Shown here piece by piece: positions 2,485 through 23,290 of a stretch of DNA of 64,000 nucleotides. Numbering within the stretch: the first letter of the stretch is position 1; each line of letters begins with the position of its first letter. Under the pieces are notes generated by a model. That model did no database searches. It saw only the letters and a list, made by a program, of their open reading frames with translations, and was not told the DNA's origin. The DNA comes from Limnomonas spitsbergensis (lineage: Eukaryota; Chlorophyta; Chlorophyceae; Chlamydomonadales): positions 7,532,501-7,596,500 of the forward strand of contig JAYJMM010000039.1 of NCBI GenBank assembly GCA_037349105.1, in the 5' to 3' direction. The position numbers and the translations under genes are program-made.

Positions 2485-2546
2485 TGTCACGGTATAATGC
2501 AGTATACGTGCCAAAACCGTAGGGGCCGCTGACGCGTCCCCGTAGA

Positions 2547-2567
2547 CTCCGCAGCTTCCCTGCGGAG
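2547..2567. promoter_or_regulatory. hairpin in repeat A
   Basis: An 8-bp perfect stem (CTCCGCAG / CTGCGGAG) closes a 5-base loop and is followed by C- and T-runs at about 2568-2577. The same hairpin is in A2 near 21407-21427. Its role is unknown. Hairpin plus T-run could affect transcript ends or strand transfer. Confidence 0.5.
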
Positions 2568-2650
2568 CCCCCTTTTTAGGGTTAGGAGCCCAGCTTCCCA
2601 CTTTCGGGAAGGTCTGAGGCAGGGTTTCCCGTACTCAGTGCATAGGGCTT

Positions 2651-2672
2651 GCCGGGACCTTTGAATCCCGGC
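2651..2672. promoter_or_regulatory. second hairpin in repeat A
   Basis: GCCGGGA and TCCCGGC form a 7-bp stem around an 8-base loop. The sequence is duplicated in A2 near 21511-21532. Function is not known. Confidence 0.45.
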
Positions 2673-2688
2673 TTGCACGCTTGACGTT

Positions 2689-2712
2689 CACTTCGTTCCT
2701 TTTAAGTGGACA
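2689..2712 (+). repeat. 24-bp inverted repeat, arm in A1
   Basis: Perfect reverse complement of 3128-3151 in the leader, with a 415-bp loop. The same 24 bp recurs in A2 at 21549-21572. RNA starting upstream of this point could fold A1 onto the leader. Confidence 0.85.
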
Positions 2713-2810
2713 GGCCTCTATTTGTAACCAGCACCGGCTAGATCTCGGAGACCTACCCAGTGAAGTGCATCAAAGCCAGTACCACTAAGCCAGTCAAGCC
2801 TAGAACAGCG

Positions 2811-3794
2811 ACCCCGCCATCTAGCAAGCACGAGAACACCTAACCCGAAGCCCAGCCCTACCTAGGACCACGTCGTCCGCAGTCTACGGCTACGGCTTCG
2901 CCCGCTACACGCGGTAAGTGACTCATAACGACCTGCAGGGTTCGCGACCCGACAGGCCTTTAGTCGCAGCTCTACAAGCGACCAGATCCACGCCTGTCAT
3001 CTAGAAGTTCCAGCCACAGCTTAACGCGCTGCGCATTCGCGGCCAGCGTGTAGACGCTGAGTCCGCCCGTAGGTGTCCGCCACTCAGTGGGGAAGAAGTC
3101 CACCACGGACCAGAAGCAACCATCGCGTGTCCACTTAAAAGGAACGAAGTGGGTCTAAGCCTGATCAGCTTGATCCAGCGAATCCTGCTAAAGGTGCATG
3201 TGCTGTGAACTTGAATTTCTTTTTGAAGGCAGTGATCTACCTTGGACAGCTCAAAATCACTTAGCAGAGGATTCTCCATAGAACCCAAGTCAATTCCTGC
3301 TTGCGCTGGGCGTGGCAACCCAGAAGCAGACGTAGCTTGAAGATCAGGCTGTGGAGTTATAAACCCAGCTGATATTACCTGTGCACGTGGCCTGCATCCG
3401 TGGTAGAGTGCACAGCCTGCGTGTTGACAGAAGTGAGCAAGGATCTGGGATCCGAGTTTAAAAGCAGGCAACCCAAGACTGTGTGCAGGAATATCCGAAG
3501 CTGCAGATTGCAGCCTGAGCAGGCCCTGCGGAGATCGAGGAGGAAGCTGCGCGACGAATCAGCGGAGGAATAGCGGACGAGACCAGCAAGATAGCGGACG
3601 AGACAGCAGTCCAGAAGGTGAAAATATCCGCCAGAACCAGGTTAAAAAAAATTTACCCGTGCTTGACCTGTCTAGCAACGCCTAACCAGCCTGCAGAAGG
3701 TAGAGGAGAACGGAAGCAGGCTTTGAGCCAGTGACCTGCTGCTGTGAGCCCACACAGCGAGCCGGCACGGCTGCTCAGCACCCAGCAATAGAAA
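2811..3794 (+). other. retroelement 5' leader
   Basis: 984 bp lie between A1 and the ORF. No TGG-type primer-binding site complementary to a tRNA 3' end is apparent right after A1. A strong splice-donor consensus (GGTAAGTG) lies at 2913-2920, so the leader may be spliced before the ORF. Positions 3128-3151 are the perfect reverse complement of 2689-2712 in A1. The minus strand of 3000-3160 has protein-like character in one frame. An in-frame TAG at 3789-3791 closes the reading frame just before the start codon. Confidence 0.6.
3128..3151 (-). repeat. 24-bp inverted repeat, arm in leader
   Basis: Perfect reverse complement of 2689-2712. It is the only internal stretch I found that pairs with the terminal repeat. 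Confidence 0.85.
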
Positions 3795-6700
3795 ATGCAG
3801 GACGCAGTGGTAGATCATGATCGTCACCTGCATCCAGAGGCTGCAAGACGCAGTGCACGAGTGAGAGGAATGGAACCAGGCAATGACCCCATGACACCCA
3901 TCAATGCAGCCGTAGCAGAGGAAGCTAGGCTAATTGCCATTGGGTTGTCAGATGGTGAATATGCAGGCATAATGGAAAACAAGGTCCAAGGGGCCGACAG
4001 CACCCTAGCCTTGGATGAGGATATGGTGCAGGTTCAAGTGACGCGCAGGGGTATCGGACGAGGCGGCATAGCGCGCATACCCCCTGGCCCAAGCCAGGAG
4101 GACGAGCAATGGCCGGTTCCCGACGATGAGTCCCTGGACCCGACCTCAGAGCCACCCACTGTGAGGTCTCAGACCGGTGGTGTAGGAGAGGGTGGCGGGC
4201 CAGCACGACCTCCGGATGACCTGCCTGCGGAGGCAGAAAGGGAAGGAGGCAAGGCTGAGCCCAGACCAGACCAGGAGCCCCAGCTTGAACCCACAGGGGT
4301 CAAGGGGATGGTCCAGTCAACAGTGGTCAGGATGGAGCGGACGAGATCCAGCGAACAGCAGTCCCAAGGGGAGTCAGCGGAAACAACAGGGAGGCCACGG
4401 GAGCTGCAGAAATACAGCGACACACAAGCCACGACAATGCAGGCTACCAGAATATGGCAGCCGCAGGCTGAGCCACACGCCAAGGTAGTGCCGCCAGATC
4501 AGCACGGAAGAATGCAGGCGCCAACGGGAATCCCGCCCAGGCCAGATCCGCACAGGGTGAAACAGGCAAGGCCGCCCCGTATCCCGGCAGAGGAAGCAAC
4601 AGAGGCGTCAACGTACGGCACACCCCAGTCCAGGTTCCCGGCCAGTGCAAATAGGCCAAGCCAGGAGACCGTGGCAGAGGGCACCAGCAGGGAAAAGGAG
4701 GACAGCGGCCAGGCCCATAGCCTTTACGGATATTTCAGCAATCCAGAGTGGACGCCCATCCCAGGAGAACGGCGCCCGGCAGCGGGAGAACGCGCAGGGA
4801 CCATAAGCCAGCCGGGTGCAGCAGAGCCACCAGGACTCCAGCCCATTGGATGGGCAGACATCCTGCAATGGGCAGGGCGGCTATGGCAGCAGGTGTGCTC
4901 CAAGTGTTTCGTCCACCTCAGCGATCAGGCCCGGGCTATCAAGGAGTTCCAAAGCCACCACTTGGCGGAATGGGCAACAAAGGCCCTTATGGGCATCCCG
5001 CACACGGGACAGGACCGAGCAACGCTGCTGGCGGCCCTGCGCAGAGTGTCCAGAGGACCAGCAGGGCCAGAGGCGGCTCTGGCTGTCAAAGCCTTTGCCG
5101 ACAAGTGGTGCAGCGGCACAGCAGGGGATCTGGAGGAGCCCGAATCAGAGCAGGAGGAGCTCGAGGAGTGGGAAGGGTTCGAGGCATCCAGGCTACAGCA
5201 AGATGACCGCAGGGAGGGGCAATGGCAGCAGCAGACGGAAGGGACCGTTCCTGTTGCACGACAGGCCAGATGGGAGAGCCTGGAAGCCAGCAGTGAGCCC
5301 AGCCTCCGAAACCAGCGGCTAGACGTAGAGCGCAGACCCAGACCCAGCAGCCCAGCGGCCAGCGAACAGCCCAGGGCAACCAGCTTCCAGCAGGACCCAG
5401 CGCCAAGGAGGGCCAGCAGGCAAGAATCTCACGACTTGTTGCGCTTCGTAGATCAGCACAGTGGCCAGGAAAGCCAGGTGGATCACATTGCTGAGTTCCT
5501 GCGAGGACAAGCAGCGCAGGCACGAGGCAGGCCGGAGAGGAGCCAAGGCCCCAGCCAAGGAAGGAGGGTCGTTCAGGAAATCAACCCGGCGGGCCCCACG
5601 GGGGGAGACTACCAGCAAAGACAGGAAAGCAGGGACGACTGCCTGTCAGCTTCCGAGGCAAGGGAGTACACAGGTGGAACGCAGCCCAGCAGGCATAGCA
5701 GCTACCAGCCCAGCAGGCAGGCAGAGTCAGAAGGGGGTAGGAGCCAGGACCCGGCAAGGCAGCCTTCGGAGGGCAGTAGGCCATCCGGTAGAAGGCAATC
5801 CCACCTGAGCGCGGACCGCAGAGACCAGCGGGATCGGCGCAGGCAGAGCCCAACCAGGAACGGCGGCGGCGGATCTGGCTCGGACCCCAGCATGTCAAGC
5901 TCGGAGGATACAGAGGGGCGCGGCCCAGGCCCCAGCAGGGAATCTGCAAGGCGCAGAAGGGAAAGGATAGCCCAAGAGCAGGCGGAGACAAACATACGGC
6001 TGCAGCAACAGATGATCCTGCAGTTGGCTGGTGGAACGCGGTTCACCAAGATCCCCAACATTCAGGGCAACGTGCCAGTGCTGGACATGTCCCACCCGGG
6101 GGCAGTCGCAGCCAGGCAATACTGCCAGGCCTGCAGCTCTTGGGGCTCGCACAACCGCCTGGCTTTATCGGACGAGCCGCCAGCCCTGGCTGTGGTGGCT
6201 GGCGAGATTGCAGGATCTTGCCAGTCTCCTTCAGCCATGGCCCTGTTGGTCCGCTCCTTGGTGGATATGTGGACAGCCAAGCCGGCCTGCGTGGGCCCAC
6301 TGGTGGTCGCCATACGATCAGCGCCGCAAGGAGACAAAGCTTCCAGGGAGGTCGAGCGGATCCGGGAAGCATGGAGAGCCCCAGTGGAGGAGCCGACCTG
6401 TGAGGTGTCCTTGCTAACCTTGTGGATCAGGGTGGTCCAAAGGGAGGTGGGCAAGCCGACTTCAGATGAGAGGGCAGCAATCACCGGCCTGAAACTCGGG
6501 GTCAAGACCACCTTGGACCCAGGCGTCAAGCCAGAGGAGACAGTGGAGGCATTCGCCTTCCGAGTCATGTCTACAGCAGAGCTGTTGCAAATCTCCAGAG
6601 ACGCAGTGGACCACTTCGGCAGGAGGCATTCGGTAGCCCACATGTTCTACGAAGGGCTGCCAGGGGCAGTCAGGGTGAAGCTGACAGCGTTCATCATGAC

Positions 6701-9700
6701 CGTGCCAGGATACCTGCACATGACAGACGAGGCCCAGGTAGAGGTTCTGACGCAGCAGGTACTGCTGTGGGAGAGGTTCGCCCTGGAATTGGGGGACCTG
6801 GCTGCCATGGACTCCAGGCAAGGACCAGGAGACCATCAGCAGAGGAGCCAGGGGGAGCAACAGGCGGGGCGCGGCAGGCGGGATCGGCCCAGCCAGTGGG
6901 AAGCCAGGCCCAGAGGGGATGGACCAGGGGTTGCGCCATACCAGAACAGCAGCCAGCCTGCCAGGCAGGAAAGCAGAGCCAAGGGCGTCACGTGGGCCGA
7001 CCAAGCCACAGCCTTGACAACCAGCACCCACAGCGCTGGGAGCGCCCCCAAAGCCTGCTTCCAATGCGGCAGCCTGGACCACCTGGCCAGGGACTGCAGG
7101 ACTCCCAGGGCTCGAGATGAACGCCGCCCTGCCCCCCTGGCCACTGACATCACCACGGGGCAGGCACGGCCGCCTCAACAGCAGTATCCACCGCCTCCAA
7201 GACCACAGGGGCCACCCGTGAACAGGACCTACGACAGGAACCAAGGAGGCAGGCCGGCCCAGAGGCAGCCGCAGGGGCAGGCGGGGCATGGCCAGCAGTC
7301 CGCTCATCTGTCTCACCTTTCTGGCCCCTCCGAGCTCGCTGAGCCGGATGGGTGGCACCAAACGGTGGCCGAAATGCTCAGCGAGTCCGTGGCCCTCCTA
7401 ACGCAGGTTGGGCTGGCACCTAAGCCTGGAGAGTACAAGCAGGCAGCCCACAACGCCAGGCCGCGGTCCTTTAGACCCTCCTCTAGCAGTGAGGAGGAGG
7501 AGGAGCCACTGGCTGTTGAACACCCTTCCAGGAAGGGAGAGAAAAGGCTTGCTCTTAGGCGACTAGCTGACGGCCTGTGCGATGTCCGTGCGCAGGTGGG
7601 CTACATCAACGAACGACTTACAGCGCTGGCGCACACCACCATGCCCATGGGAGTCACGCCGGTCCGTGGTGAGCCGGGCTGGATAGGTCAGGGTCGTAAG
7701 ATCACCATCAGCCCGAGGCTACAATACTTCACAAACGACAGGCGAGATTACAGCCAGTGCGTAGGCCTCATGGTGAAAGGGAAGGTGCTGGTGGCCCAGA
7801 AGGCACTAATGGACACGGCATGTTCATGCCATGTCATCACCGTCAACATAGCAGAACAGCTGGTAGCCATGGGGGCCAAGCTGGTGAGGACGGATGAAAA
7901 GATCAGGACAACCGATAATGCAGGAGCAGACCTGTACGGGATTCTGTTCATCTACGTCGTATACGGGTATGGAAGCCCGAATGCGATCGTGGAGAAGGCA
8001 GCAGTCAGGGTGGTCAAGACGCCTCCTGACGCGTATGAGCACCTGGTAGGGAACCCCGAATTCCTCAAGTATGGGGGAATCCTAGAAGCCGCAGGGCGCC
8101 TCACCCTGTTCCCTCAAGGAGGAGCCGACGAGCTCACCCTGCCGCTAGAACTGATATCACCAGCAGGATCCCACCAGGCGGCCGCGGCAACCTGGGCAGG
8201 CTTGGACGACCCCGCCTGGGTGCCTGAAGAGTGGCCGGCAGATTGGGGCGAGATGAACCCAGACTTAACCCCACAATGTGCCATGGTGACAGGTACAGGC
8301 GGCCCTGCGACGCAAACTACAGTCGCCGCAAACCGTGTCACCCGTTTGCCCGCGGCAGAGGCACCGGCGACAGCACCAGAAGGGGACAGGCCGGCCAAGG
8401 CCAAAGGGGCCCGTGGCGCAGGTACTGAGGCAGCGCGCCAGCACGCAGGGAAAAAGGGAACCAACCCTGCTGCAGCGCCCGAGACAAACCCAGTAACCCT
8501 TACCCAAGCTCGCGCAGCGCCGGCGGACCCGGACGGTACCAGGGGTACCGGGAGCCGGTCCATCAGCGGAGACAAGGTCGGCAAAGCCATGGAGCCCCCC
8601 GTAGCAGCGCGGGACAAGGCAAGGCTAGCCATGGTACAGGAGCACACAGTCCGACAGGAGGTCAGGAGTGCCCTGCGCAACAGGGAAGGCACGTGCGCGT
8701 ACTGCGACATGCGCAGATCGCATTCAGACCAGGAATGCGAGCGGCGGCTAGGGGAGCTCCTGGAGAACGAGCCGGGCCAGGGGGCAGACACGCACAGCAG
8801 AGGCAGCTGCCAGCCAGGCTCCCCGGCTACGCACAATCAGGACACCAGCTCCAGCGATGAGGGAGTTACCGAATCAGAGACTGAGCTGCCGGCGGACAGG
8901 GGTGCGCCCGGGGCAGCCGTCATCAGCTGCCTGGAGGCCCGGGTCGAGGTCCTGAACAGAGCCATCCAGACCGCAGCCAGGCAGAGGATCGCCAGCAGGG
9001 AGGCAGACATTTATTCCTTCAAGACGGAACAGGCCCGGGCAATGGCGGACGGCGCCTCGGACAAGGAGATGGCCCGGTGGAAGGGCGAGTGCGCCAAGTG
9101 GATCATAGAGGTCAATGAGCTCAAAAAGAGGTACAAGGAGGAGTACAAGGGCACAAAAGCAGCCAGTGGGCCGGCCCCCCAGCGCCCCTGTGGAGCCCTG
9201 CGGGAGGCCTGCAGCGGGGCAAGGGAGGCCAGGCAGCAGCAGCCTGAGGCGGACACAACTATCGAGCCCCCACAGCAGGACGCAGCACCAAGCGATGGGG
9301 CCAGGGGAGGAGAGCAGGACGGCAAAGAAGGAACGTCCAGGGGTACGCCCACTGAGGTGCAGGAGGTTCTGAACGAGCTCGACGACCCTGCCCTAAGGGA
9401 GTACCCGGAGGATCTGATTCAGTCTCTAAGGGACAATAGCGCCAAGCCCAAGCAGAGAAATCTCCCCATGGCAAGGGCCAGCCGCACCCCCTCTCCACGG
9501 GCAAGGGAGCCAGGCAGCGGCCCAAGCAGCAACCCCGTCAGCGGCAGGGAGCCTAGGAGCGCCAGCGCCGCAGAGCGTCAGCCAAGGGGAAGGAGCCCAC
9601 GGCGCAGTAGCCACAGCAGGGAGCGGCGGGCTCCAAGCACCGAGCAGCTAAAAGGAATCCAGTGCAAGGACGAGCGCCGGCCGTACAGGCAGCCACCTCC

Positions 9701-15700: not shown

Positions 15701-18700
15701 CAAGGCCGAGGACCAGCCCAAGACGGCTTTCTGGATGGGCCCAGAACTCTGGATGTACACTAAGTTGAACTTTGGGCTGCGCAACGGGCCTCCCTTCTTC
15801 CAGCGTATGATGGAGGAAGAGATCGCCAGGGCAGGCCTGAGCTCCTTCTGTGTGGCATTCATTGACGACCTGCTGGTGTATAGTGACAAGCCTGCAGATC
15901 ACATCAGGCATGTAGAGCTCATGCTAGACATGCTCCACGCAGTAGGACTACGCGCGCATCCTGACAAGTCCCTGTTTGGGTGTGACACGGTAGAGTACCT
16001 CGGCCACAACGTCTCGGCCCAAGGCCTCACACCGCACGCAGCCAAAATAGCGGCCGTCATGGCTCTGCCCGAACCCGCATCGGTCAAGAACATTCAGGAG
16101 GTCATGGGATTCCTGAATTTCTACCGGTGCTACATCCCGGATTTCTCTCGAAAGGCCGCATGCATCAACGCACTGCTGGTCAAGGGGGTCCCGTTTGTGT
16201 GGGGGCCCGAACAGGCCCAGGCGTTTCAGCTGATCAAAACTGAGATGTGCGAGGGAGGCAGGGTGCTGCGCAGACCTGACTACAGCGGAACGGGTCCAGA
16301 CGGCAAGGGGCCACCACGGCCATTCCTGTTGTACACCGACTTCTCTAAGCAGGGTATAGGGGCGGTGCTAGGGCAGTGTGACGACAGCGGCAGGGAGTAC
16401 ATGGTCGCCTGCACTTCCCGTTCCCTGAACAAAAGCGAAAAGAACTACTCGTCGTTTCAGGGGGAAATGCTCGCGGCTGTGTACGCTGCCCGGACGTACC
16501 GCCATATGCTCTTTGGGTGCAAGGTGCATTTGGTCACGGACCACGAACCCCTCACCTATCTCATGGATAACCAGGCCTTAGTGGGGCAGCACGCACGCTG
16601 GGCACTCATGCTGCAGGAGCTTGACATTACCATTGTCCACCGGTCAGGGGCCTGCCACCAGAACGCAGATATCCCGTCCAGGTCCCCCCTCCCATCATCC
16701 AATGACCGCACAGGGGCACGGCTAGACGATGTCACCCCTGAGCCGCACACCCCTAGTGAGACCACCTGCGGACCACAGGTCGCTATGCTCACAGGCCTAG
16801 GCAGGGTAAACCAGTGGCACGCAGATCAGGTGGTTCGCCTAGCACAGGAGGGCAGGCGAAGCGTGCGCCGCCTGCGGGCTGCCGAGACGGCGTGTACAGT
16901 GGCCCCGTGCGGCCAGGCTATCTCCAGCGCAAAGGATGAGGACGATGAGCAGGCACAGCCTGCCAGCGCTGCAGAAAGAGTTTTCAATAGCAGGGCCAGG
17001 GCCAGGAACCTGATCAGCAATGTGCTGACCGACCTGCCCCGCTCGACCCCGGCCCACCTCCATGCAGGGGTGGATACGGCATGCCTACCGACAGAGGCGG
17101 TGTACGCCCTGGAACGAGAGGGAGTGGTCCTGTTCGAGCCCTTCGGAGGTATGTGCTCTGGGCTTGAGATGGTGCTTAGGGCAGGCATCCCGGTCACGCA
17201 GTATCTGTACGCCGATACCAGTGCCTCCATGCGGGAGATCGCGGGGGGAAGACTGGTGCAGCTGCACAAGCAATACCCGCTATTGCTCCCAGCGCCAGCC
17301 GTCGAGGGGGCGTTCAGGGCATTGCCCCAGGACGTGTACTCCATTACTGCCCAGCACTTCATAGAGGCTGGGGCACAGCAGGGCCGCCAGTGGTTTCTGG
17401 TAGCAGGATGGGAGTGTCACGACTTGTCGGCTGCAGGCAAGGGCAAGGGGCTCGAGGGGGACAGGAGCAAGTCTTTCTTCCCGCTTATCAGGCTGCTAGG
17501 CTCCTTGCAGGTCCTGCAAAGGGCCAGGCCGCCAGCATACTTGATCGAAAATGTCGCTATGCAGCTAAACCAGCGTAGCGAGAAGGCTAGCGTAGAGGCT
17601 TTCGGCGAAGTGTGCCGGTTGCTGGGTAGGCCTTCCCTGTTTGATGCAGCGCAGGTGGGATCCTATGCCCACCGCACGCGCAACTACTGGGGCAACCTAG
17701 CACCAGCCGCAGACATTGAGTTTGTTATCCAGGCATCGCATAGGCCGCACGACGGTATTGTGGATGACATTCTGGACGAGGGCAGTAGGGCGCAGGTCGT
17801 GGCCTGCCCCGATAACGGCGGGTACCGTATCAATGTATCTGGGCAACCTAGGAGGGCGCTGCCCTGCCTCATGGCCACCCCCGCATCCTACGCTTTCCGG
17901 AACGGGCAGATCGGCATGGTGTTCAGGCCCATGGGGGGCCTGCAGGAACCCAATGCCAACGAAAGGGAGAGGGCCATGGGGTACGCAGTGGGGTCCACTT
18001 TGCCCCGCCACGACTTTCCTGAGGGCGATAGGAGGGCCGCCTTGGGCAGGTGCATGGATGCTTGGGCTCTCGAGGCTTGGTTCACCATAGCCCTCGAGGC
18101 GGCCAAGATCATCCCTAGGGAGCTGGCCCGCAGGGCTGGGTTACCAGGCCCGGACAGCGACCTGGCTATCGGCATGACCCTGACGTCCACACATTGCGCC
18201 CTAGCCAGTGCAGGCACTGCATGCTCCGGCGAGGGCGAGGCAGCGGCAACGTATCGGCAGTGCTTGGGGGAGTCAGCGGCAGCAGACTGGGCGGATGCCG
18301 CCCAGGAACCAGGTGGGCTGCCTGACCCGGAACCAGAGCCTGTCCAGGGTGCAGACGACGGGGCAGGGGCGGTCGTAGACCCTCCAGGGTGCGCTGCAGG
18401 ACCTGCCGCAGGGGTGGACGTATGGACAGACGTGCCAGTCCTGCGCTACCTGCAATCAAAAAGGCACCCCGCAGGGGCAGAGGCAGGGGAACAGGCCAGG
18501 GTGCAACGTAGAGCCGCACCTTTCCAGTGGGAACCAGAGAGAGGGGGCGTGCTGATAAGAGTGATGCCAGACGGGCGGCGGTGTGTAGTTCCCAGGCCCG
18601 AGGACAGACAGGCAGTCATCAGGGAAGCTCACGCTAACACCGGTCACTTCGGCAGCCACCGCACGGCCTTCATGATCATGCAGCAGCACTGGTGGAGAGG

Positions 18701-20240
18701 GCTTAGGGCAGCCGTCAGGAAGGCTGTCCAGGAGTGCGGGGTGTGCGACAGGGCAAGGGCGTCCACGTTCAATCACACGCAGCCAGACCTGCACCCACTC
18801 CCTATTGAGGGTTTATTTTTCCGCTGGGGTGTGGACCTGTGCGGGCCGTTCACTACCACGCCTAGGGGCAACCGGTACGTCATGGTGTGTGTTGAACACT
18901 ACTCCAAGTGGGTGGAGCTTATCCCCATCCCCAGCAAGGCGTCTGACGTGACGGCCTTGGCATTCTTCCAAAACGTGGTCGCACGGTTTGGGGGATGCGC
19001 AGAGGTGGTCACCGATCAGGGGACAGAGTTCCAGGGAGAGTTCCAAGACATGTTACTAGACTGCTTCATTGACCATCGCACCACCTCTGCCAACCATCCC
19101 CAGGCGGATGGGCTATCCGAACGGGCGGTCCAGACACTCAAGGCGGGCCTGCGCAAGTGCTGCGGGGATGGGAGCAGCGACGACTCGTGGGACAGGATGG
19201 TCCCATGGGTAGCGCTGGGGTTCCGATGCTCGCCTCAGCAGGCTACACGCATGGCCCCCTACGAGGTCCTGTACGGTCAGAAGCCAGTGTTCCCCTCCAA
19301 GGTCGGGGCAGACCTGTGGAGCACAGCGCGAGTGGCTACAGCGGAGGAAGCCGCAGACCTGCTCCTCGCCAGGGTAGCCAGGATCAAGGAGGCCCTCCCG
19401 GTCGCGGGGGAGCACCTCAAGATCGCACAGCACCGGGACAAGTTGCGCTACGCCAGGATCCGCGGAGGAGGATATGTGCCCCAGGTCAGGCGATTCGCCG
19501 TTGGGGACTACGTGTACGTCCGGTACGCTTCAGAGCGACGCAGCCTCGACCCCAAGGCCAGGCCAGAAATCCTGCGGGTGCAGAGGCTGGGGGAGACGGG
19601 GGCGTTGGTGCTGGAGGGAGCCGATGGCCTGACCGTAACAGAGAACGCAGTCAACTGCTCCCCATGCCACCTCCCCAACCTGAAAGGCAGGGTGGATTTC
19701 GGCTCCACCAGGCCCAACATCAGCTTGTCCTGCGAAGTCTGCCGCCTACCCGACCGGGGGGAAGTCATGCTCCTGTGTGACGCATGCAATACCGGCTGGC
19801 ACATGGACTGCCTCACGCCGGCGCTACACGCCATCCCCGAGGGCGATTGGATGTGCCCCAGGTGCAAGCCAGCAGCAAGGACAAGCGAAGAGCCGGGCCC
19901 GGCCGCAGCTGCGGGACCCTGCACCCCAGCCCACCTCGAGGGGGCAGCGCCACGGGCAGCCAGGGCAGCCGCCAGAGCAGCCCAGGAGACAGGAGCCATG
20001 GACAAGCCTGAGGTGGAGGTCATGGCCACCAACCCGGCCACCAAACAAATGGAGCGGGGCATCGCCAGGCCCATGCCGAACGGGTTGTATGACATTTCAT
20101 ATACAACAGGCAGGGGAGAAGCCAACGTCACACCCAGGGCAGTCCTACGCAGGGCCAAAGCGGCCGCCGACGCAGCACGTACAGAGGAGGAGACAGCTGC
20201 CAAGGGACAGACAGCCAGGGGGGACGGCCAGGAGGGATAA
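3795..20240 (+). CDS. gag-pol polyprotein with DNMT3-like methyltransferase and PHD fingers (5481 aa)
   Basis: One uninterrupted frame encodes the whole element. ATG at 3795 is chosen because TAG lies two codons upstream in frame; TAA is at 20238-20240. Approximate order in residues: Q/S/R-rich gag N-terminus (1-728); capsid-like helical region (729-999); CCHC knuckle (1088-1101); aspartic protease with DTA at 1340-1342; variant CCHC (1634-1648); coiled coil (1708-1791); RS-rich (1916-2072); CCHC (2094-2107); unrecognised globular region (~2480-2943); two PHD-like modules (3232-3330); two CCHC knuckles (3348-3384); hydrophobic helix (3688-3706); RT with FIDD at 4022-4025; RNase H (D4182, E4224, D4249); DNMT3-like domain (~4443-4770); integrase (HHCC 4946-4984, D5014, D5074, E5109); PHD (5313-5357). 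Typical gypsy gag-pols are under about 2000 residues. Protease is nearly 2700 residues from RT, which is odd. All catalytic residues checked in RT, RNase H and integrase are present. Confidence 0.95.
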   Translation: MQDAVVDHDRHLHPEAARRSARVRGMEPGNDPMTPINAAVAEEARLIAIGLSDGEYAGIMENKVQGADSTLALDEDMVQVQVTRRGIGRGGIARIPPGPSQEDEQWPVPDDESLDPTSEPPTVRSQTGGVGEGGGPARPPDDLPAEAEREGGKAEPRPDQEPQLEPTGVKGMVQSTVVRMERTRSSEQQSQGESAETTGRPRELQKYSDTQATTMQATRIWQPQAEPHAKVVPPDQHGRMQAPTGIPPRPDPHRVKQARPPRIPAEEATEASTYGTPQSRFPASANRPSQETVAEGTSREKEDSGQAHSLYGYFSNPEWTPIPGERRPAAGERAGTISQPGAAEPPGLQPIGWADILQWAGRLWQQVCSKCFVHLSDQARAIKEFQSHHLAEWATKALMGIPHTGQDRATLLAALRRVSRGPAGPEAALAVKAFADKWCSGTAGDLEEPESEQEELEEWEGFEASRLQQDDRREGQWQQQTEGTVPVARQARWESLEASSEPSLRNQRLDVERRPRPSSPAASEQPRATSFQQDPAPRRASRQESHDLLRFVDQHSGQESQVDHIAEFLRGQAAQARGRPERSQGPSQGRRVVQEINPAGPTGGDYQQRQESRDDCLSASEAREYTGGTQPSRHSSYQPSRQAESEGGRSQDPARQPSEGSRPSGRRQSHLSADRRDQRDRRRQSPTRNGGGGSGSDPSMSSSEDTEGRGPGPSRESARRRRERIAQEQAETNIRLQQQMILQLAGGTRFTKIPNIQGNVPVLDMSHPGAVAARQYCQACSSWGSHNRLALSDEPPALAVVAGEIAGSCQSPSAMALLVRSLVDMWTAKPACVGPLVVAIRSAPQGDKASREVERIREAWRAPVEEPTCEVSLLTLWIRVVQREVGKPTSDERAAITGLKLGVKTTLDPGVKPEETVEAFAFRVMSTAELLQISRDAVDHFGRRHSVAHMFYEGLPGAVRVKLTAFIMTVPGYLHMTDEAQVEVLTQQVLLWERFALELGDLAAMDSRQGPGDHQQRSQGEQQAGRGRRDRPSQWEARPRGDGPGVAPYQNSSQPARQESRAKGVTWADQATALTTSTHSAGSAPKACFQCGSLDHLARDCRTPRARDERRPAPLATDITTGQARPPQQQYPPPPRPQGPPVNRTYDRNQGGRPAQRQPQGQAGHGQQSAHLSHLSGPSELAEPDGWHQTVAEMLSESVALLTQVGLAPKPGEYKQAAHNARPRSFRPSSSSEEEEEPLAVEHPSRKGEKRLALRRLADGLCDVRAQVGYINERLTALAHTTMPMGVTPVRGEPGWIGQGRKITISPRLQYFTNDRRDYSQCVGLMVKGKVLVAQKALMDTACSCHVITVNIAEQLVAMGAKLVRTDEKIRTTDNAGADLYGILFIYVVYGYGSPNAIVEKAAVRVVKTPPDAYEHLVGNPEFLKYGGILEAAGRLTLFPQGGADELTLPLELISPAGSHQAAAATWAGLDDPAWVPEEWPADWGEMNPDLTPQCAMVTGTGGPATQTTVAANRVTRLPAAEAPATAPEGDRPAKAKGARGAGTEAARQHAGKKGTNPAAAPETNPVTLTQARAAPADPDGTRGTGSRSISGDKVGKAMEPPVAARDKARLAMVQEHTVRQEVRSALRNREGTCAYCDMRRSHSDQECERRLGELLENEPGQGADTHSRGSCQPGSPATHNQDTSSSDEGVTESETELPADRGAPGAAVISCLEARVEVLNRAIQTAARQRIASREADIYSFKTEQARAMADGASDKEMARWKGECAKWIIEVNELKKRYKEEYKGTKAASGPAPQRPCGALREACSGAREARQQQPEADTTIEPPQQDAAPSDGARGGEQDGKEGTSRGTPTEVQEVLNELDDPALREYPEDLIQSLRDNSAKPKQRNLPMARASRTPSPRAREPGSGPSSNPVSGREPRSASAAERQPRGRSPRRSSHSRERRAPSTEQLKGIQCKDERRPYRQPPPPPQGASGGNQRPRGREALSPDGRSRNRRTRSRSPVTPGKPSNRGSREHEDGSGRRWEGETPRSPCGERWPQGRARSPIRQRQHHSPGRHATAEEPGENRMIRWAPPEDSARGRTGRAPPTQKEACYKCGGSGHFAFECNQRQAQPWRPSGGGEGRAQAQDNLGHGSLRQEEPPSDNQQRIHLRDLFEAEKNEPFEVWAARQAGAPPANFLPGPPEGRRWEGKGAHGCFATIPRGHDPGINEPDTWFEQEWDDAYLEGQEEQARQPLDLPEERGPEPGLGPDGIPAEAQNGEVPQQVHHWRVAVEAIATNGLLTMPANAPKSTAHALELLDYLRRMGAPAPQEGWLALLANFLVPLRAREDQGNSESEGSAHRQDPEISGEASGQEGESDDLSQDIYDPPDVLCPGTPEAGGPAAGPRPAASAEGGGSSFTLQALGATGGVTSRPPTAGSGHRSCRTEHGPTERTWVQEEVPSEREQRWEPEEPQNPDHWGDSDLSAVEDAEDLDAPGPGPGEPWPRHCFVQWYPAGTDMPEVAATAAMVTLPGAGADGLCRLQNHWCVPRGEVICVDRQAAMQAVARLVFPMDAVTAGLLAAAIKGHIRPSTAMEEFMSSTWPTPLYANCVSELLGSVVKEGITAAEEQFRTSQEIPDAARAYGMWQHAHDGFMRTPWAETCVMTLACHPCLANQAVCVPTQAAARQAYALAALRDHSGYDGAGILHPGTPRQCPAIVERGRDIAREVLGQAVPWGYEPGDARAAIPVRLAVAYYHEDSERRWAHPTPRAWMHMHATRDDQPVWFFFKTATRVLSDRFPSVEQAEEHAVATFRGADPAVWAIMMMALNRTLLPGQMSAAVKNIEIVDELWAPQERADCPTQVSAHGTPEMGATAWHGEEALTLSAFAQDRLQSCLQQWLRVEQAAYYNGVPASLLPHWSAPAATVRLWQQWHPRGAVTLHPLFSCSNYDEALRNLTSLLDRGIADRHETPRGRWGAFREAASPGSAHSPDDTTLHLQPDSREQSFFTSLRGGNYEVDWPESDEENSLTGLPQLLPDSDSEGEPADTARHTEPSEGGAAVPSEHTAPSAGHTQGSSQQSRAPAEQPGPVAPLRIQADAPPNWSRGLSDTGSEASNPDPEDPGSPHLAAEGEPDRGTDLSKEQWDDELRQFVAQRDRQRLEDRVPWPVPQGGTELRGSRIEASLRYRLSMVPDPSPDPRLQGRNQAAEELKQAFRGRLRALSEAPPPELARGPGTGGAVSPGRSYGSDPVHTEPCAGCDQTRAGERLIWCSACGTAWHDLCMRTPRTGTARMCQFCMTPEVRLPSCLGCGERIGPTDQPGRRCCRCHATACSACMNKPGVGGTRRGAWACCGCSDAVPPAWGHHSVHNEPCERCGKKGHDYHACPAPRLREGRCTICFHQGHLAIACPERNQSLGFIRQRQMEEDSRLGVRWWCSEQEALPGEREVVFKATHSRATVSDVRQAIEERRQDEADQARRREQRPVPFREWYKETADQPLQPSMHAVQYAQILTIGAELIKAHDEGRWPEAGEPLDNWPVEWGVPERTSLWNYQAIQRTMLQPHQLDRQPRSAARSSDNARTQTVSPERAYRPDTGCAGPTTAERHQTPSSKGDTRPADPSKVRAAAARRARNARTRARQRRRKAVARDASNSTGCPSPPARISQVELEISWQEGPGDRGPPAVPSPPAPAGPQPCPRQHPGCRGLLPCTAFRGLLACLCHLALVWLLLSCLPGAQASGRGVRGGGFTAGQGAFVSSREAAAKLEPGWLRPPVDMPAPRPPRPQRTWDQGTSSAGSQAGTGEPLAGGVIDMFQPGGVVHAPSEYVKTAEGWLLGKHPDFSGEQQEQLEQSLRDRQGAFAYSMLELPGYCGAQGEFTLALEDEHSSCFQKARDMPPPKAAIFKEKSQPMIEAGIIVRVPQGGPIKFAANSVVAAKKCAETGEWSDHRIAHDMRRMNLRTAKQEFAIPRMETIFQNLGTAKVFSKVDLRSGFMQIPIKAEDQPKTAFWMGPELWMYTKLNFGLRNGPPFFQRMMEEEIARAGLSSFCVAFIDDLLVYSDKPADHIRHVELMLDMLHAVGLRAHPDKSLFGCDTVEYLGHNVSAQGLTPHAAKIAAVMALPEPASVKNIQEVMGFLNFYRCYIPDFSRKAACINALLVKGVPFVWGPEQAQAFQLIKTEMCEGGRVLRRPDYSGTGPDGKGPPRPFLLYTDFSKQGIGAVLGQCDDSGREYMVACTSRSLNKSEKNYSSFQGEMLAAVYAARTYRHMLFGCKVHLVTDHEPLTYLMDNQALVGQHARWALMLQELDITIVHRSGACHQNADIPSRSPLPSSNDRTGARLDDVTPEPHTPSETTCGPQVAMLTGLGRVNQWHADQVVRLAQEGRRSVRRLRAAETACTVAPCGQAISSAKDEDDEQAQPASAAERVFNSRARARNLISNVLTDLPRSTPAHLHAGVDTACLPTEAVYALEREGVVLFEPFGGMCSGLEMVLRAGIPVTQYLYADTSASMREIAGGRLVQLHKQYPLLLPAPAVEGAFRALPQDVYSITAQHFIEAGAQQGRQWFLVAGWECHDLSAAGKGKGLEGDRSKSFFPLIRLLGSLQVLQRARPPAYLIENVAMQLNQRSEKASVEAFGEVCRLLGRPSLFDAAQVGSYAHRTRNYWGNLAPAADIEFVIQASHRPHDGIVDDILDEGSRAQVVACPDNGGYRINVSGQPRRALPCLMATPASYAFRNGQIGMVFRPMGGLQEPNANERERAMGYAVGSTLPRHDFPEGDRRAALGRCMDAWALEAWFTIALEAAKIIPRELARRAGLPGPDSDLAIGMTLTSTHCALASAGTACSGEGEAAATYRQCLGESAAADWADAAQEPGGLPDPEPEPVQGADDGAGAVVDPPGCAAGPAAGVDVWTDVPVLRYLQSKRHPAGAEAGEQARVQRRAAPFQWEPERGGVLIRVMPDGRRCVVPRPEDRQAVIREAHANTGHFGSHRTAFMIMQQHWWRGLRAAVRKAVQECGVCDRARASTFNHTQPDLHPLPIEGLFFRWGVDLCGPFTTTPRGNRYVMVCVEHYSKWVELIPIPSKASDVTALAFFQNVVARFGGCAEVVTDQGTEFQGEFQDMLLDCFIDHRTTSANHPQADGLSERAVQTLKAGLRKCCGDGSSDDSWDRMVPWVALGFRCSPQQATRMAPYEVLYGQKPVFPSKVGADLWSTARVATAEEAADLLLARVARIKEALPVAGEHLKIAQHRDKLRYARIRGGGYVPQVRRFAVGDYVYVRYASERRSLDPKARPEILRVQRLGETGALVLEGADGLTVTENAVNCSPCHLPNLKGRVDFGSTRPNISLSCEVCRLPDRGEVMLLCDACNTGWHMDCLTPALHAIPEGDWMCPRCKPAARTSEEPGPAAAAGPCTPAHLEGAAPRAARAAARAAQETGAMDKPEVEVMATNPATKQMERGIARPMPNGLYDISYTTGRGEANVTPRAVLRRAKAAADAARTEEETAAKGQTARGDGQEG
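5979..7097 (+). other. gag capsid-like region and first CCHC knuckle
   Basis: Residues 729-999 are helical and low in repeats, unlike the Q/S/R-rich stretch before them. They end in a segment resembling the gag domain of gypsy elements (FYEGLPGAVRVKLTAF and surroundings). Next comes C1088-F-Q-C-X4-H-X4-C1101, a standard retroviral CX2CX4HX4C knuckle for RNA binding. This part should form particles and package the transcript. The capsid match is by character and position, not by a search. Confidence 0.7.
7746..8130 (+). other. retropepsin-like aspartic protease region
   Basis: ALMDTACSCHVITVNIAEQL has the hydrophobic-hydrophobic-D-T-(A/G/S) active-site loop of clan AA proteases, with D1340. 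Alanine replaces the commoner glycine or serine after DT. The later ILEAAGRLTLFPQG segment is where the second hydrophobic flap-to-core motif would fall. It should cut the polyprotein. It sits between gag and a long accessory block instead of next to RT. Confidence 0.65.
8694..10115 (+). other. accessory block: CCHC variant, coiled coil, RS-rich stretch, CCHC knuckle
   Basis: C1634-A-Y-C-X5-H-X4-C1648 is a knuckle with one extra residue. Residues 1708-1791 form a charged amphipathic helix (WIIEVNELKKRYKEEYKGTK). Residues 1916-2072 are rich in Arg-Ser and Pro (RSPRRSSHSRERRAPS; RNRRTRSRSP), like SR-protein tails. C2094-YKC-X4-H-X4-C2107 is a standard knuckle. This reads like a second gag-type nucleic-acid-binding module inside the same polyprotein. 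Interaction with host RNA-processing factors is only a guess. Confidence 0.6.
11235..12623 (+). other. unrecognised globular region, ~460 aa
   Basis: Residues about 2480-2943 have balanced composition with regular Trp, Tyr and hydrophobic positions (for example RHCFVQWYPAGTDMPEVAAT and AWMHMHATRDDQPVWFFFKT), between low-complexity acidic/Pro/Ser stretches on both sides. I recognise no family. It could be a captured host domain or an element-specific gag/assembly domain. A structure-based search is the obvious test. Confidence 0.5.
13488..13946 (+). other. two PHD-like zinc modules and two CCHC knuckles
   Basis: Residues 3232-3273 show CX2C, CX2C, HX2C, CX2C spacing of a PHD finger, including LIWCSACGTAWHDLC. 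Residues 3283-3330 carry a second set (CLGC ... CCRC ... CSAC ... CCGC), possibly PHD- or RING-like. Then C3348-ERC-X4-H-X4-C3361 and C3371-TIC-X4-H-X4-C3384 are two retroviral knuckles. PHD fingers usually read histone H3 tails, so chromatin and RNA binding appear together just before RT. Confidence 0.7.
14856..14912 (+). other. hydrophobic helix before RT
   Basis: Residues 3688-3706 (GLLACLCHLALVWLLLSCL) form a 19-residue uncharged stretch followed by PGAQASG, which resembles a signal-peptidase or protease site. It could be a membrane anchor, or the core of a cleavage product's N-terminus. Internal transmembrane segments are unusual in gypsy pol. Confidence 0.5.
15180..16690 (+). other. Ty3/gypsy reverse transcriptase and RNase H
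   Basis: The RT shows FSKVDLRSGFMQIPI, LNFGLRNGPPFFQRMM and FIDDLLVYS (catalytic D4024, D4025), and the thumb VEYLGHNVSAQGL, in the gypsy order. RNase H follows with YTDFS (D4182), GEMLA (E4224), TDHEPLTYL (D4249) and NADIPSR (D4292). No frameshift or stop interrupts it. These make the minus-strand cDNA and degrade the RNA template. Confidence 0.95.
17121..18115 (+). other. DNMT3-like cytosine-5 DNA methyltransferase domain
   Basis: Between RNase H and integrase, residues about 4443-4770 carry the C5-methyltransferase motifs in order: SAM-binding FEPFGGMCSG (4447 on); the catalytic loop GWECHDLS with C4541; IENVAM (motif VI, E4585); QVGSYAHRTRNYWGNL (motif VIII, 4620 on); ERERAMGY (4723 on). 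The HRTRNYWGNL and DLS segments look most like the DNMT3 group. Motif IV has Glu where Pro-Cys is usual. By analogy with reported retrotransposon methyltransferases it could methylate CG sites of element or host DNA. Activity is not shown by sequence. Confidence 0.85.
18630..19680 (+). other. DDE integrase with HHCC zinc domain and C-terminal SH3-like domain
   Basis: H4946-X4-H4951-X29-C4981-X2-C4984 is the integrase zinc domain. The core has D5014 (GVDLCGPF), D5074 (VVTDQGTEF) and E5109 (DGLSERAVQTLK); the last two are 35 apart, one less than usual. VGDYVYVRYASERRS and the following residues fit the C-terminal DNA-binding domain. The 4-bp target duplication at the ends fits a DDE integrase. 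Confidence 0.92.
19731..19865 (+). other. C-terminal PHD finger of the integrase
   Basis: C5313-EVC, LLCDAC, GWHMDC and GDWMCPRC form a textbook C4HC3 PHD finger (5313-5357), in the place where many gypsy elements carry a chromodomain. It probably directs integration by reading histone tails. A basic/Ala-rich tail of about 120 residues follows, including GLYDISYTTGRGEANVTPRA. Confidence 0.9.
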
Positions 20241-20439
20241 GAGCACACCAGCATTGCCACGGAGCCAGCTACCTAGGGGCAGGTTCGAGTTAGCACCGCT
20301 GCTACTGCAAGCGTCTCCTGAGGCTTAGGGCCGAGTGTCAACGGTGCAGTGGGGCGAGAGCAGCGGCTATTTGGGTGGAGGTTGATTAACAGAAGGATTC
20401 TGTAGGTCAGGTTCAGTCTCGTGCAACCAGCTGTAGGCT

Positions 20440-20885
20440 TCCAATTCCAGTCTCAGATGGGTTCTGAGGATTTCCGCTTCTGATGATTTCTGACAGGTTT
20501 CTTTTCTGTTGCTGAGGAGTACTGCCTCCTGATGACGTCTGATGGGTTCTGACGAGTTCTGTTTCTGGTCCTGAGGAGTGTTGACTCCTATGGGTTCCGA
20601 TGTTTCTGATGGTTCTGAGGAATATGCTTCTGACCAGTTCTGTTTCTGTCTCTGAGGAGTACTGACTCCCGTAACGCCTGATGGGTTCTGACGAGTTCTG
20701 TTTCTGGTTTTGAGGAGTGCTGACTCCTGATGGGTTCCGATGTTTCTGATGGTTCTGAGGAATTGTACCTCTGACGAGTTCTGTTTCTGTTTCTGTGGAG
20801 TGCTGCCTCCTTATGAGTTCCGACGTTTCTGATGGTTCTGAGGAATTATGATTCTGACGAGTTCTGTCGTCTGACGGTTCTTGAT
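20440..20885 (+). repeat. imperfect tandem repeats downstream of the ORF
   Basis: A T/G-rich unit of roughly 82-83 bp recurs irregularly: GACGAGTTCT lies at 20551, 20690, 20773 and 20856, with the variant TGACCAGTTC at 20631. Between occurrences the sequence repeats GGTTCTGAGGAAT and GAGGAGTGCTGACTCC. It lies between the stop codon and B1, so it is transcribed 3' sequence. No coding potential was seen. Confidence 0.75.
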
Positions 20886-21085
20886 TTCAAACACGCATGA
20901 CAATTGTGATGGTACCAGATTCTGTTTGCCCTGATCAGGCCAGAGAGTAGCCAATCAGGTCTGCAGGTGTTTAAGAGGGTTCCGTGTTAGGGAACTGACC
21001 AGGCCTGAGTGTACATATTTTTCCGATCTCAGTTTCAGTACCACCCCTAGTCCGGCTCCCCACGCACGCCCGGTGTGCGTTTCGT
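20886..21085 (+). other. unique 3' internal segment of the element
   Basis: Non-coding sequence between the tandem repeats and the purine tract. It includes a short hairpin (CGCAC/GTGCG) at about 21064-21080. No gene is seen. Confidence 0.5.
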
Positions 21086-21102
21086 GAGGAGCGGGGGGCG
21101 AG
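21086..21102 (+). promoter_or_regulatory. candidate polypurine tract
   Basis: GAGGAGCGGGGGGCGAG abuts the first base of B1. In LTR elements the purine tract that primes plus-strand DNA lies just upstream of the 3' LTR, so by this mark the 3' repeat would begin at B1, not at A2. No comparable tract precedes A2. Confidence 0.6.
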
Positions 21103-21342
21103 TAAAGTAGGGGCGGTACCCACAGCTAGGGGCGCCCGGGCAGGCCAGCCTTACACCAGCCTTAGCTCTTATGCGGTACGCTGTACCAAGTTACCCCTTT
21201 ACAGCCCTTGTACCTCAGCAGTGTAGTACAAGAGGCACGTATGTACGGGTGTTGAACCTTAGTTGTGAGTAGTTTGAGCCTCTCTAAGGCAGTAAGGACA
21301 GCTTACACCATTTTGGCACGGTTACTGCTTTATGGTGCGACA
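21103..21342 (+). repeat. split direct repeat B1
   Basis: 240 bp, identical by eye to B2 (21671-21910). It starts TAAAGTAGGGGCGG and ends GGTGCGACA, and is separated from A2 by only GC (21343-21344). It contains TA/CG-rich short palindromes such as GGTACGCTGTACC. Confidence 0.93.
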
Positions 21343-21344
21343 GC

Positions 21345-21670
21345 TGTCACGGTATAATGCAGTATACGTGCCAAAACCGTAGGGGCCGCTGACGCGTCCC
21401 CGTAGACTCCGCAGCTTCCCTGCGGAGCCCCCTTTTTAGGGTTAGGAGCCCAGCTTCCCACTTTCGGGAAGGTCTGAGGCAGGGTTTCCCGTACTCAGTG
21501 CATAGGGCTTGCCGGGACCTTTGAATCCCGGCTTGCACGCTTGACGTTCACTTCGTTCCTTTTAAGTGGACAGGCCTCTATTTGTAACCAGCACCGGCTA
21601 GATCTCGGAGACCTACCCAGTGAAGTGCATCAAAGCCAGTACCACTAAGCCAGTCAAGCCTAGAACAGCG
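21345..21670 (+). repeat. split direct repeat A2
   Basis: 326 bp, identical by eye to A1. It is followed without spacer by B2. The A2+B2 unit (566 bp) would look like a TG...CA long terminal repeat on its own. Confidence 0.93.
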
Positions 21671-21910
21671 TAAAGTAGGGGCGGTACCCACAGCTAGGGG
21701 CGCCCGGGCAGGCCAGCCTTACACCAGCCTTAGCTCTTATGCGGTACGCTGTACCAAGTTACCCCTTTACAGCCCTTGTACCTCAGCAGTGTAGTACAAG
21801 AGGCACGTATGTACGGGTGTTGAACCTTAGTTGTGAGTAGTTTGAGCCTCTCTAAGGCAGTAAGGACAGCTTACACCATTTTGGCACGGTTACTGCTTTA
21901 TGGTGCGACA
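21671..21910 (+). repeat. split direct repeat B2 (right end)
   Basis: 240 bp, identical by eye to B1, ending GCGACA against the CCGC target duplication. Confidence 0.93.
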
Positions 21911-21914
21911 CCGC
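21911..21914. repeat. target-site duplication, right (CCGC)
   Basis: Second copy of the 4-bp host sequence. It continues into TGAACATGATACT, exactly as in the empty locus at 44832 onward. Confidence 0.88.
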
Positions 21915-22780: not shown

Positions 22781-22977
22781 AAGCTATATGCTAATCCAGG
22801 GCACCTGCTGATCAGTCACCAAATGCTGTCCCACCTCATCAGCACGCTTGGCCGCCAGGGCTGCCTCCATCACCACGCTCATCTTCTCTTTATCCGCCTT
22901 TTCCTTTTTCCGCTGCTCCTGCCGCGTCTGATGTCCCTCCTGTACAATACAGAACGACTCTCCTTTTGTCATGACCC

Positions 22978-23290
22978 TATATTCATTACTCATTACTCAC
23001 AGCCCTGGATTCATTACTCATTACTCACAGCCCTGGATTCATTACTTATTACTCACAGCCCTGGATTCGTTACTCATTACTCACTGCCCTGGATTCGCTA
23101 CTCAATACTCACAGCCCTGGATTCATTACTTATTACTCACAGCCCTGGATTCATTACAGATTACGCACAGCCCTGAAGTCATGATTCATTACTCACAGAC
23201 CTGGATACATGATTCATTACTCACAGCCCTGGATTCCTGATTCATTACTCACAGAGTCACAGCCCTGGATCCATGATTCATTGTTGTTCT
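22978..23290. repeat. minisatellite, 28-29-bp unit
   Basis: Tandem copies of TCACAGCCCTGGATTCATTA with CTCATTAC variants, between the last two PRP16 exons of copy beta. Related arrays are at 38087-38505 (longer) and 45895-46207. Confidence 0.85.

Follow-up and report, generated by a model that had tools for sequence, protein, structure and literature searches.

The usual view of the integrases of retroviruses and long terminal repeat (LTR) retrotransposons is that their substrates are the ends of the linear complementary DNA (cDNA), and whether they truly use the palindromes of circle junctions in cells has long been debated. In Tf1, which has ordinary LTRs, the LTR edges are the integration ends, and the self-complementarity is about 11 nt. 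Tf1 and Tj1, LTR retrotransposons of fission yeast, are described in the published passages relevant here as self-primed, with a primer site that is complementary to their own RNA (PMC4600332). Corresponding passages on retroviruses report that the integrase of the foamy virus PFV cleaves the LTR-LTR palindrome and leaves a 2-nt 5' overhang (PMC1180852), that the integrase of human immunodeficiency virus type 1 (HIV-1) cleaves its 2-LTR junction palindrome (PMC1905944), and that 2-LTR circles are a reserve for HIV integration (PMC4372172). Split direct repeats, on the other hand, are described in the sections cited here for tyrosine-recombinase elements (PMC4157794, PMC6681497), and a figure legend attributes a DIRS-type repeat structure with Gypsy domain composition to KnitGypsy-Dnmt3 of Klebsormidium nitens (de Mendoza et al. 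2018, PMC5890265). We analyzed a 64,000-nucleotide stretch of the green alga Limnomonas spitsbergensis (contig JAYJMM010000039.1, positions 7,532,501 to 7,596,500; hereafter the window), in which an element at positions 2485-21910 combines split direct repeats with a DDE integrase. We propose, with a probability of roughly 0.7, that this element is a Ty3/Gypsy retrotransposon that primes itself and in which the ends of the cDNA and those used for integration lie at different places.

In the window copy, the repeats A1 (2485-2810) and A2 (21345-21670) match at 100% over 326 bp, and B1 (21103-21342) and B2 (21671-21910) match at 100% over 240 bp; both identities are far beyond chance. B1 and A2 are separated by the dinucleotide GC (21343-21344), A2 directly abuts B2, and the tetranucleotide CCGC is present on either flank (2481-2484 and 21911-21914) as a 4-bp target duplication. 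A1 starts with the integrase end TGTC and B1 ends with the integrase end GACA; these repeats and all other oriented features given below are on the plus strand. The preliminary description of this DNA had reported the two identities, the GC spacer, the abutment of A2 and B2, the TGTC and GACA ends and the duplication, all of which were confirmed by sequence comparison. The DDE integrase that it had also recognized proved to be real, consisting of an H2C2 zinc finger and an rve core (Pfam, 18597-19124) with a D-D-35-E triad in invariant alignment columns (catalytic codons D 18834, D 19014 and E 19122), and its relatives of solved structure in PDB include Ty3 (E 7.9e-16) and PFV (E 1.3e-15). The integrase lies within a single open polyprotein frame of 5481 amino acids (3795-20240), downstream of reverse transcriptase (15561-16013, PF00078) and RNase H (16314-16619, PF17917), so that the domain order, together with the H2C2 and DDE integrase, is that of Ty3/Gypsy elements. 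No tyrosine recombinase domain was matched at E up to 1 in a domain search of the window element. The element shares with Ngaro, PAT and VIPER the A1-internal-B1-A2-B2 order of the DIRS/Ngaro/PAT split repeats, whereas those elements have a tyrosine recombinase and make no target duplication.

The genome (260 Mb, 124 contigs) contained at least 82 matches to A2-B2 (40 of 1677 first-look candidates were scored), 150 integrase matches with identities down to 92%, and 64 occurrences of the primer-site 26-mer. The first 24 bases of A occurred 562 times, compared with 0 in a reversed control, although this number is no count of insertions, because many of these starts belong to tandem arrays, with no fewer than 44 on C15. 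We compared both ends of 33 further copies with those of the window copy (34 copies in all). The plan of this family is A-C-primer site-internal-polypurine tract-AG-B-GC-A-C-AG-B, where C is a segment of 317 bp that follows A1 (2811-3127 in the window). The repeat A of the preliminary description is therefore exact in its identity but shorter than the family repeat, which is A plus C and measures 641-643 bp. The window copy is a variant within its family: most other copies keep the duplicate of C, but the window A2 has lost these last 317 bp of the full repeat, so that A2 and B2 abut as 326-bp and 240-bp repeats.

Identical 4-bp flanks were found by script in 29 of the 34 copies and by eye in one more (C28b), once a substitution at its B2 end was allowed for. 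Three copies assessed later also had matching duplications: C119 (CCTC; its left and right ends, separated by about 42 kb, were matched through their position and the common CCTC), C124 (TGAA) and C123 (TACA). In total, 33 of 35 assessable copies of family 1 have matching duplications of mostly different tetranucleotides, the short fixed length of 4 bp being in keeping with Ty3/Gypsy elements. Two copies whose right ends are hidden by nested insertions (C116b and C27b) were left out of this count, as were C70, C104b, C102 and C123b, whose right ends were taken for the analysis of joints. A second subfamily, whose identity to family 1 was 70% over A-C and 65.5% over B in one pairwise comparison, has the same order, with 4-bp duplications in 10 of 10 copies (eight by script, TCTA by eye and ATAG later).

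The split architecture is therefore real and general among the copies examined, and it is the normal structure of the family and no accident. Misassembly or one aberrant insertion event, for which the unusual A2/B2 joint of the window copy itself could speak, has next to no probability as an explanation, and is refuted for the architecture by the dozens of copies on many contigs, in two subfamilies and with matching duplications. The preliminary description had left two alternatives, a mode of gypsy replication not yet described, with permuted ends as its outcome, and a one-off product, and had suggested a search of the rest of the genome. The recurrence of the same order with independent duplications across dozens of copies as well as a diverged subfamily supports the first alternative; the second is rejected for the architecture and survives in part for the window copy, as its truncated joint. 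Copies with ordinary AB...AB LTRs, which had been named as evidence to the contrary, were absent from the 82 sites at which we read the 5' end.

The primer-binding site of the window copy (3128-3151) is the exact reverse complement, over 24 nt, of positions 205-228 of A, and this self-primer arm (CACTTCGTTCCTTTTAAGTGGACA, 2689-2712 within A1) is paired with it in the predicted fold of the region (z-score -4.66; 0 of 100 shuffles as good). The self-complementarity is kept in the second subfamily, where it measured 23-27 nt in the nine copies computed, and where the 24-nt family-2 arm departs from the family-1 arm, at six positions, every change is compensated (6/6). Because the 24-nt segment of A complements the primer site and the six changes between subfamilies are compensated, reverse transcription is probably self-primed, and we regard self-priming as strongly supported by these comparisons. 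As in Tf1 and Tj1, the segment complementary to the primer site would lie close to where the RNA is expected to start, but the complementarity of 24 nt differs from that of Tf1.

The edges of the repeats were found to coincide with the expected starts of DNA synthesis. The repeat A-C runs exactly up to the primer site, whose upstream edge is the expected start of minus-strand DNA, and AG-B begins right after the polypurine-rich tract (GGAGCGGGGGGCG, 21088-21100), the expected start of plus-strand DNA; the putative start is the AG that follows the tract and that is retained at most A2/B2 joints. A linear cDNA with 887-bp repeats, AG-B-GC-A-C, is therefore expected from reverse transcription of the ordinary kind, and a spacing of 887 bp was also observed where extra units are present (C20 and C71).

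The integration ends are located elsewhere. The first bases of inserted copies are TGTC and the last are GACA, and these are the two halves of the palindrome GACA-GC-TGTC (21339-21348) at the B-GC-A boundary, which lies 242 bp inside the cDNA repeat. The imperfect inverted repeats around the GC match at 27 of 36 positions in family 1 and at 23 of 36 in family 2, and the GC centre is kept in both subfamilies. Within the family-1 repeat, 20 of 720,801 offset pairs reach 27 matches, a set that was counted and not inspected singly. Distances of 643 bp and 242 bp separate the integration ends from the primer site and the polypurine tract, respectively; the complete identical LTRs of Ty3/Gypsy elements, with TG...CA edges that adjoin both, were not found. 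It is a natural inference that the DDE integrase acts at the internal palindrome, the putative cutting site inside the cDNA repeat. Such an activity would resemble that of the PFV and HIV-1 integrases, which open an internal palindrome, in PFV with a 2-nt overhang. However, their palindrome is made by the joining of LTR ends; the one described here is internal to a single repeat, and inserted copies terminate in its two halves.

We examined 34 terminal A2/B2 joints of family 1, 33 of them besides that of the window copy. An exact junction of the end of C with AG-B was present in 26 of them. Extra bases were found at five joints (T in C111b and C71, TG in C124a and C102, TGT in C39b); they are the bases that come next in the primer site, as though nucleotides of the primer had been copied. 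One joint (C103) contained 23 primer-site bases, and a second of this type, known by position only, is on C83. These primer remnants of 1-3 nt and copies of 22-23 nt would fit the release of a self-primer by RNase H. The remaining two joints, in C75 and the window copy, are truncated, with C largely or wholly lost. Joints of the second subfamily had an extra A in two copies and reiterated filler in one, and in family 1 truncated cDNA was captured at the joint in C103 and in one C119 copy, with filler also in C119. To judge from the copies themselves, the joint variants, fillers and captured cDNA are marks of end-joining.

Four copies without any difference over A-C plus B (C124a, C39b, C105 and C119a) carry three joint types, and the joint is thus not inherited. 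The comparison of repeats within and between 25 of the 34 copies was made without C20, C71 and C103 (extra units), C82, C19 and C112b (no A2), C116b and C27b (nested insertions) and C104. Within one copy, B1 and B2 differed by 0-3 bases and A-C and A2 by 0-4, while the mean differences between copies were 4.9 (B) and 10.9 (A-C); B1 of one copy was identical to B2 of another in 32 of 300 pairs. These data strongly support the view that the A2/B2 boundary is a fresh join of the two cDNA ends, made de novo. They also bear on a DIRS- or Ngaro-like mode of copying, in which the RNA would carry A1-internal-B1-A2-B2, the repeats would be inherited from the template, and circular DNA would arise by repeat bridging. 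Such copying would produce the repeat order that the cited passages give for Ngaro, PAT and VIPER (PMC4157794, PMC6681497), but joints that vary among otherwise identical copies and end at primer nucleotides are not expected from it, and neither are the 4-bp duplications or the lack of a tyrosine recombinase match. We consider it very improbable.

We propose the following sequence of events. Self-primed reverse transcription would give a linear cDNA with the 887-bp repeats AG-B-GC-A-C at both ends, and the DDE integrase would bind and open the internal palindrome, with removal of the GC. Less certainly, the palindrome opened would be that of the 5' repeat, and it would be opened before the ends are joined; the 5' repeat is favoured because it is probably the first to become double-stranded. 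Both cut ends may then enter the target, a step that is likewise less certain. Finally, the free end of the 3' repeat would be joined by end-joining to the leftover B of the 5' cDNA repeat, which would thereby become B2, sometimes with loss, filler or captured cDNA.

The order of cutting and joining was assessed from the 82 sites at which the 5' end was read (40 listed ends containing C, two more, and 40 of the 41 remaining primer sites, leaving out one listed end without C and one primer site on C124). Flanking DNA stood directly before A at 79 of the 82 sites, one had no A start, and two had B-GC before A. Since some flanks recur (two on C27 and three on C97), about 76 of the sites with flanking DNA before A are independent. 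The identical upstream flanks, at C27:1660004 and 1680032 (about 20 kb apart) and at three places on C97, suggest segmental duplications. Mirror-form copies (A-C-B-GC-A-C-internal-B), which would result from use of the other palindrome, were not proven at any of the 82 sites, with one site on C123 being ambiguous. Equal use of both palindromes is therefore unlikely, given flanking DNA before A at 79 of 82 sites, and cutting in the 5' repeat before the joining of the ends is favoured.

In the reverse order, the cDNA would first be ligated to a 2-LTR circle, which the integrase would then linearize at an internal palindrome, a route suggested for the circles of foamy virus and HIV. The A2/B2 joint, with its small gains and losses, does resemble a 2-LTR circle junction; three papers provide precedents for cleavage of circle palindromes by integrase (PMC1180852, PMC1905944, PMC4372172); and a circle with one repeat would directly give the short form A-internal-B, which was seen with matching duplications in five copies. 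However, a circle would contain two equal palindromes and should yield the mirror form about half the time, while at most the C123 site could represent it among the 82 sites. We thus regard joining before cutting as possible but rather unlikely.

Several observations weigh against the proposal that the ends are separated by cutting in the 5' repeat followed by end-joining. Of the 40 ends at which B follows the polypurine tract, 33 continue into GC-A and seven meet flanking DNA, with no second A and B. Five of these seven short forms (C82, C19, C112b, C124 and C123) have a 5' end and a matching duplication, and they need another route: a short form could arise if both palindromes were cut, by annealing between the two Bs, or by later recombination. 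For the other two (L106 and L111) no 5' end was located, and flank searches for L106 found no partner. The two sites with B-GC before A are further points of this kind. The one on C21 is 18.9 kb downstream of another 5' end, in the usual place of A2, and neither an AG-B joint nor the usual internal sequence was found right after its A. The one on C123 (3582419-3583213) lies downstream of another copy and reads B-GC-A-C-primer site-internal, which would fit either a tandem dimer or a mirror form. Two assessable copies, C36 and C9, lack a matching duplication. The scarcity of mirror forms is the sole argument for cutting before joining, and another source of this asymmetry is possible. In addition, the sample is skewed towards the best-scoring and youngest copies, all evidence comes from one genome, and primer use, the start of transcription, the forms of the cDNA and cutting by integrase are all inferred from genomic copies. 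We lean slightly towards the broader view that in a whole Gypsy lineage a DDE integrase of retroviral type opens an internal palindrome of the cDNA repeat, that cutting of the 5' repeat is ordered, and that end-joining after integration rebuilds the far end.

The preliminary description knew of no described family with this combination. For the repeat pattern, the legend on KnitGypsy-Dnmt3 is the one precedent found (PMC5890265); for the mechanism none was found in open-licence PMC text. By its description, KnitGypsy-Dnmt3 agrees with the present element in DIRS-type repeats and Gypsy domains; it also has a cytosine methylase domain (Dnmt3) in Pol, for which the match in the present element is weak. 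The passages of that paper bearing on this element contain nothing on target duplications, self-priming, an internal integrase palindrome or the mechanism. More widely, no account of such target duplications, self-priming, an internal integrase site or the mechanism was found in open-licence PMC text, the scope of the search extending to neither subscription literature nor supplements, and the novelty of the mechanism is limited to that text. If our proposal is correct, the ends of the cDNA are decoupled from the ends that integrate, and no tyrosine recombinase is needed for split direct repeats to arise and be maintained. Judged by its genomic copies, a high-copy family regularly has its integration ends at an internal palindrome, and how the cDNA ends were processed and joined can be read from each copy. 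Split direct repeats are thereby separated from tyrosine recombinases, two features often treated as jointly diagnostic, and an automatic classifier would be mistaken in calling such copies DIRS elements or broken LTR elements.

The polyprotein frame contains, in addition, a CCHC zinc knuckle of Gag (7053-7100, PF00098), a weak partial match to a C5-cytosine methylase-like domain (17394-17588, PF00145, E 3.8e-05) and a PHD finger after the integrase (19731-19865, PF00628). Gypsy polyproteins of Chlamydomonas, Haematococcus, Pleodorina and other chlorophytes, compared as proteins only, share the order of reverse transcriptase, RNase H, integrase and PHD finger, and some of them have a C5 methylase match; REM1 of C. 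reinhardtii is of a related kind. One relative (P0008) has a C-terminal DPFAGSG...SSPPFD pattern that by eye is like an N6-adenine methylase, in line with REM1. Open frames of more than 5000 amino acids (up to 5514) are retained in several other copies, and together with the four copies that do not differ over A-C plus B they suggest recent activity. A genome search with a piece of C. reinhardtii integrase gave 116 matches at about 50-53% identity and reached no clearly different clade, since many of these matches sit where the earlier integrase matches did. Among viral contigs, 28 stretches fitted a pattern for relatives, and none was confirmed.

Other arrangements of the repeats were also noted. 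A short derivative of about 3.1 kb (C123:4959802-4962924), with A-C, primer site, polypurine tract and B between TACA flanks, may be non-autonomous or have arisen by internal deletion. At C15:1174800-1215581 and C18:97517-127709, an LTR unit of about 885 bp is repeated in long tandem arrays, which are LTR-derived satellite; the C15 array, with its A starts, reaches near the contig end, and the three unit joints read in it join the end of C to AG-B. Downstream of the element, between positions 22919 and 64000 of the window, blocks that contain tandem arrays (28-bp, 12-bp and 65-bp) are repeated roughly every 8-15 kb (for example at 22981, 38091 and 45898), which suggests duplicated segments.

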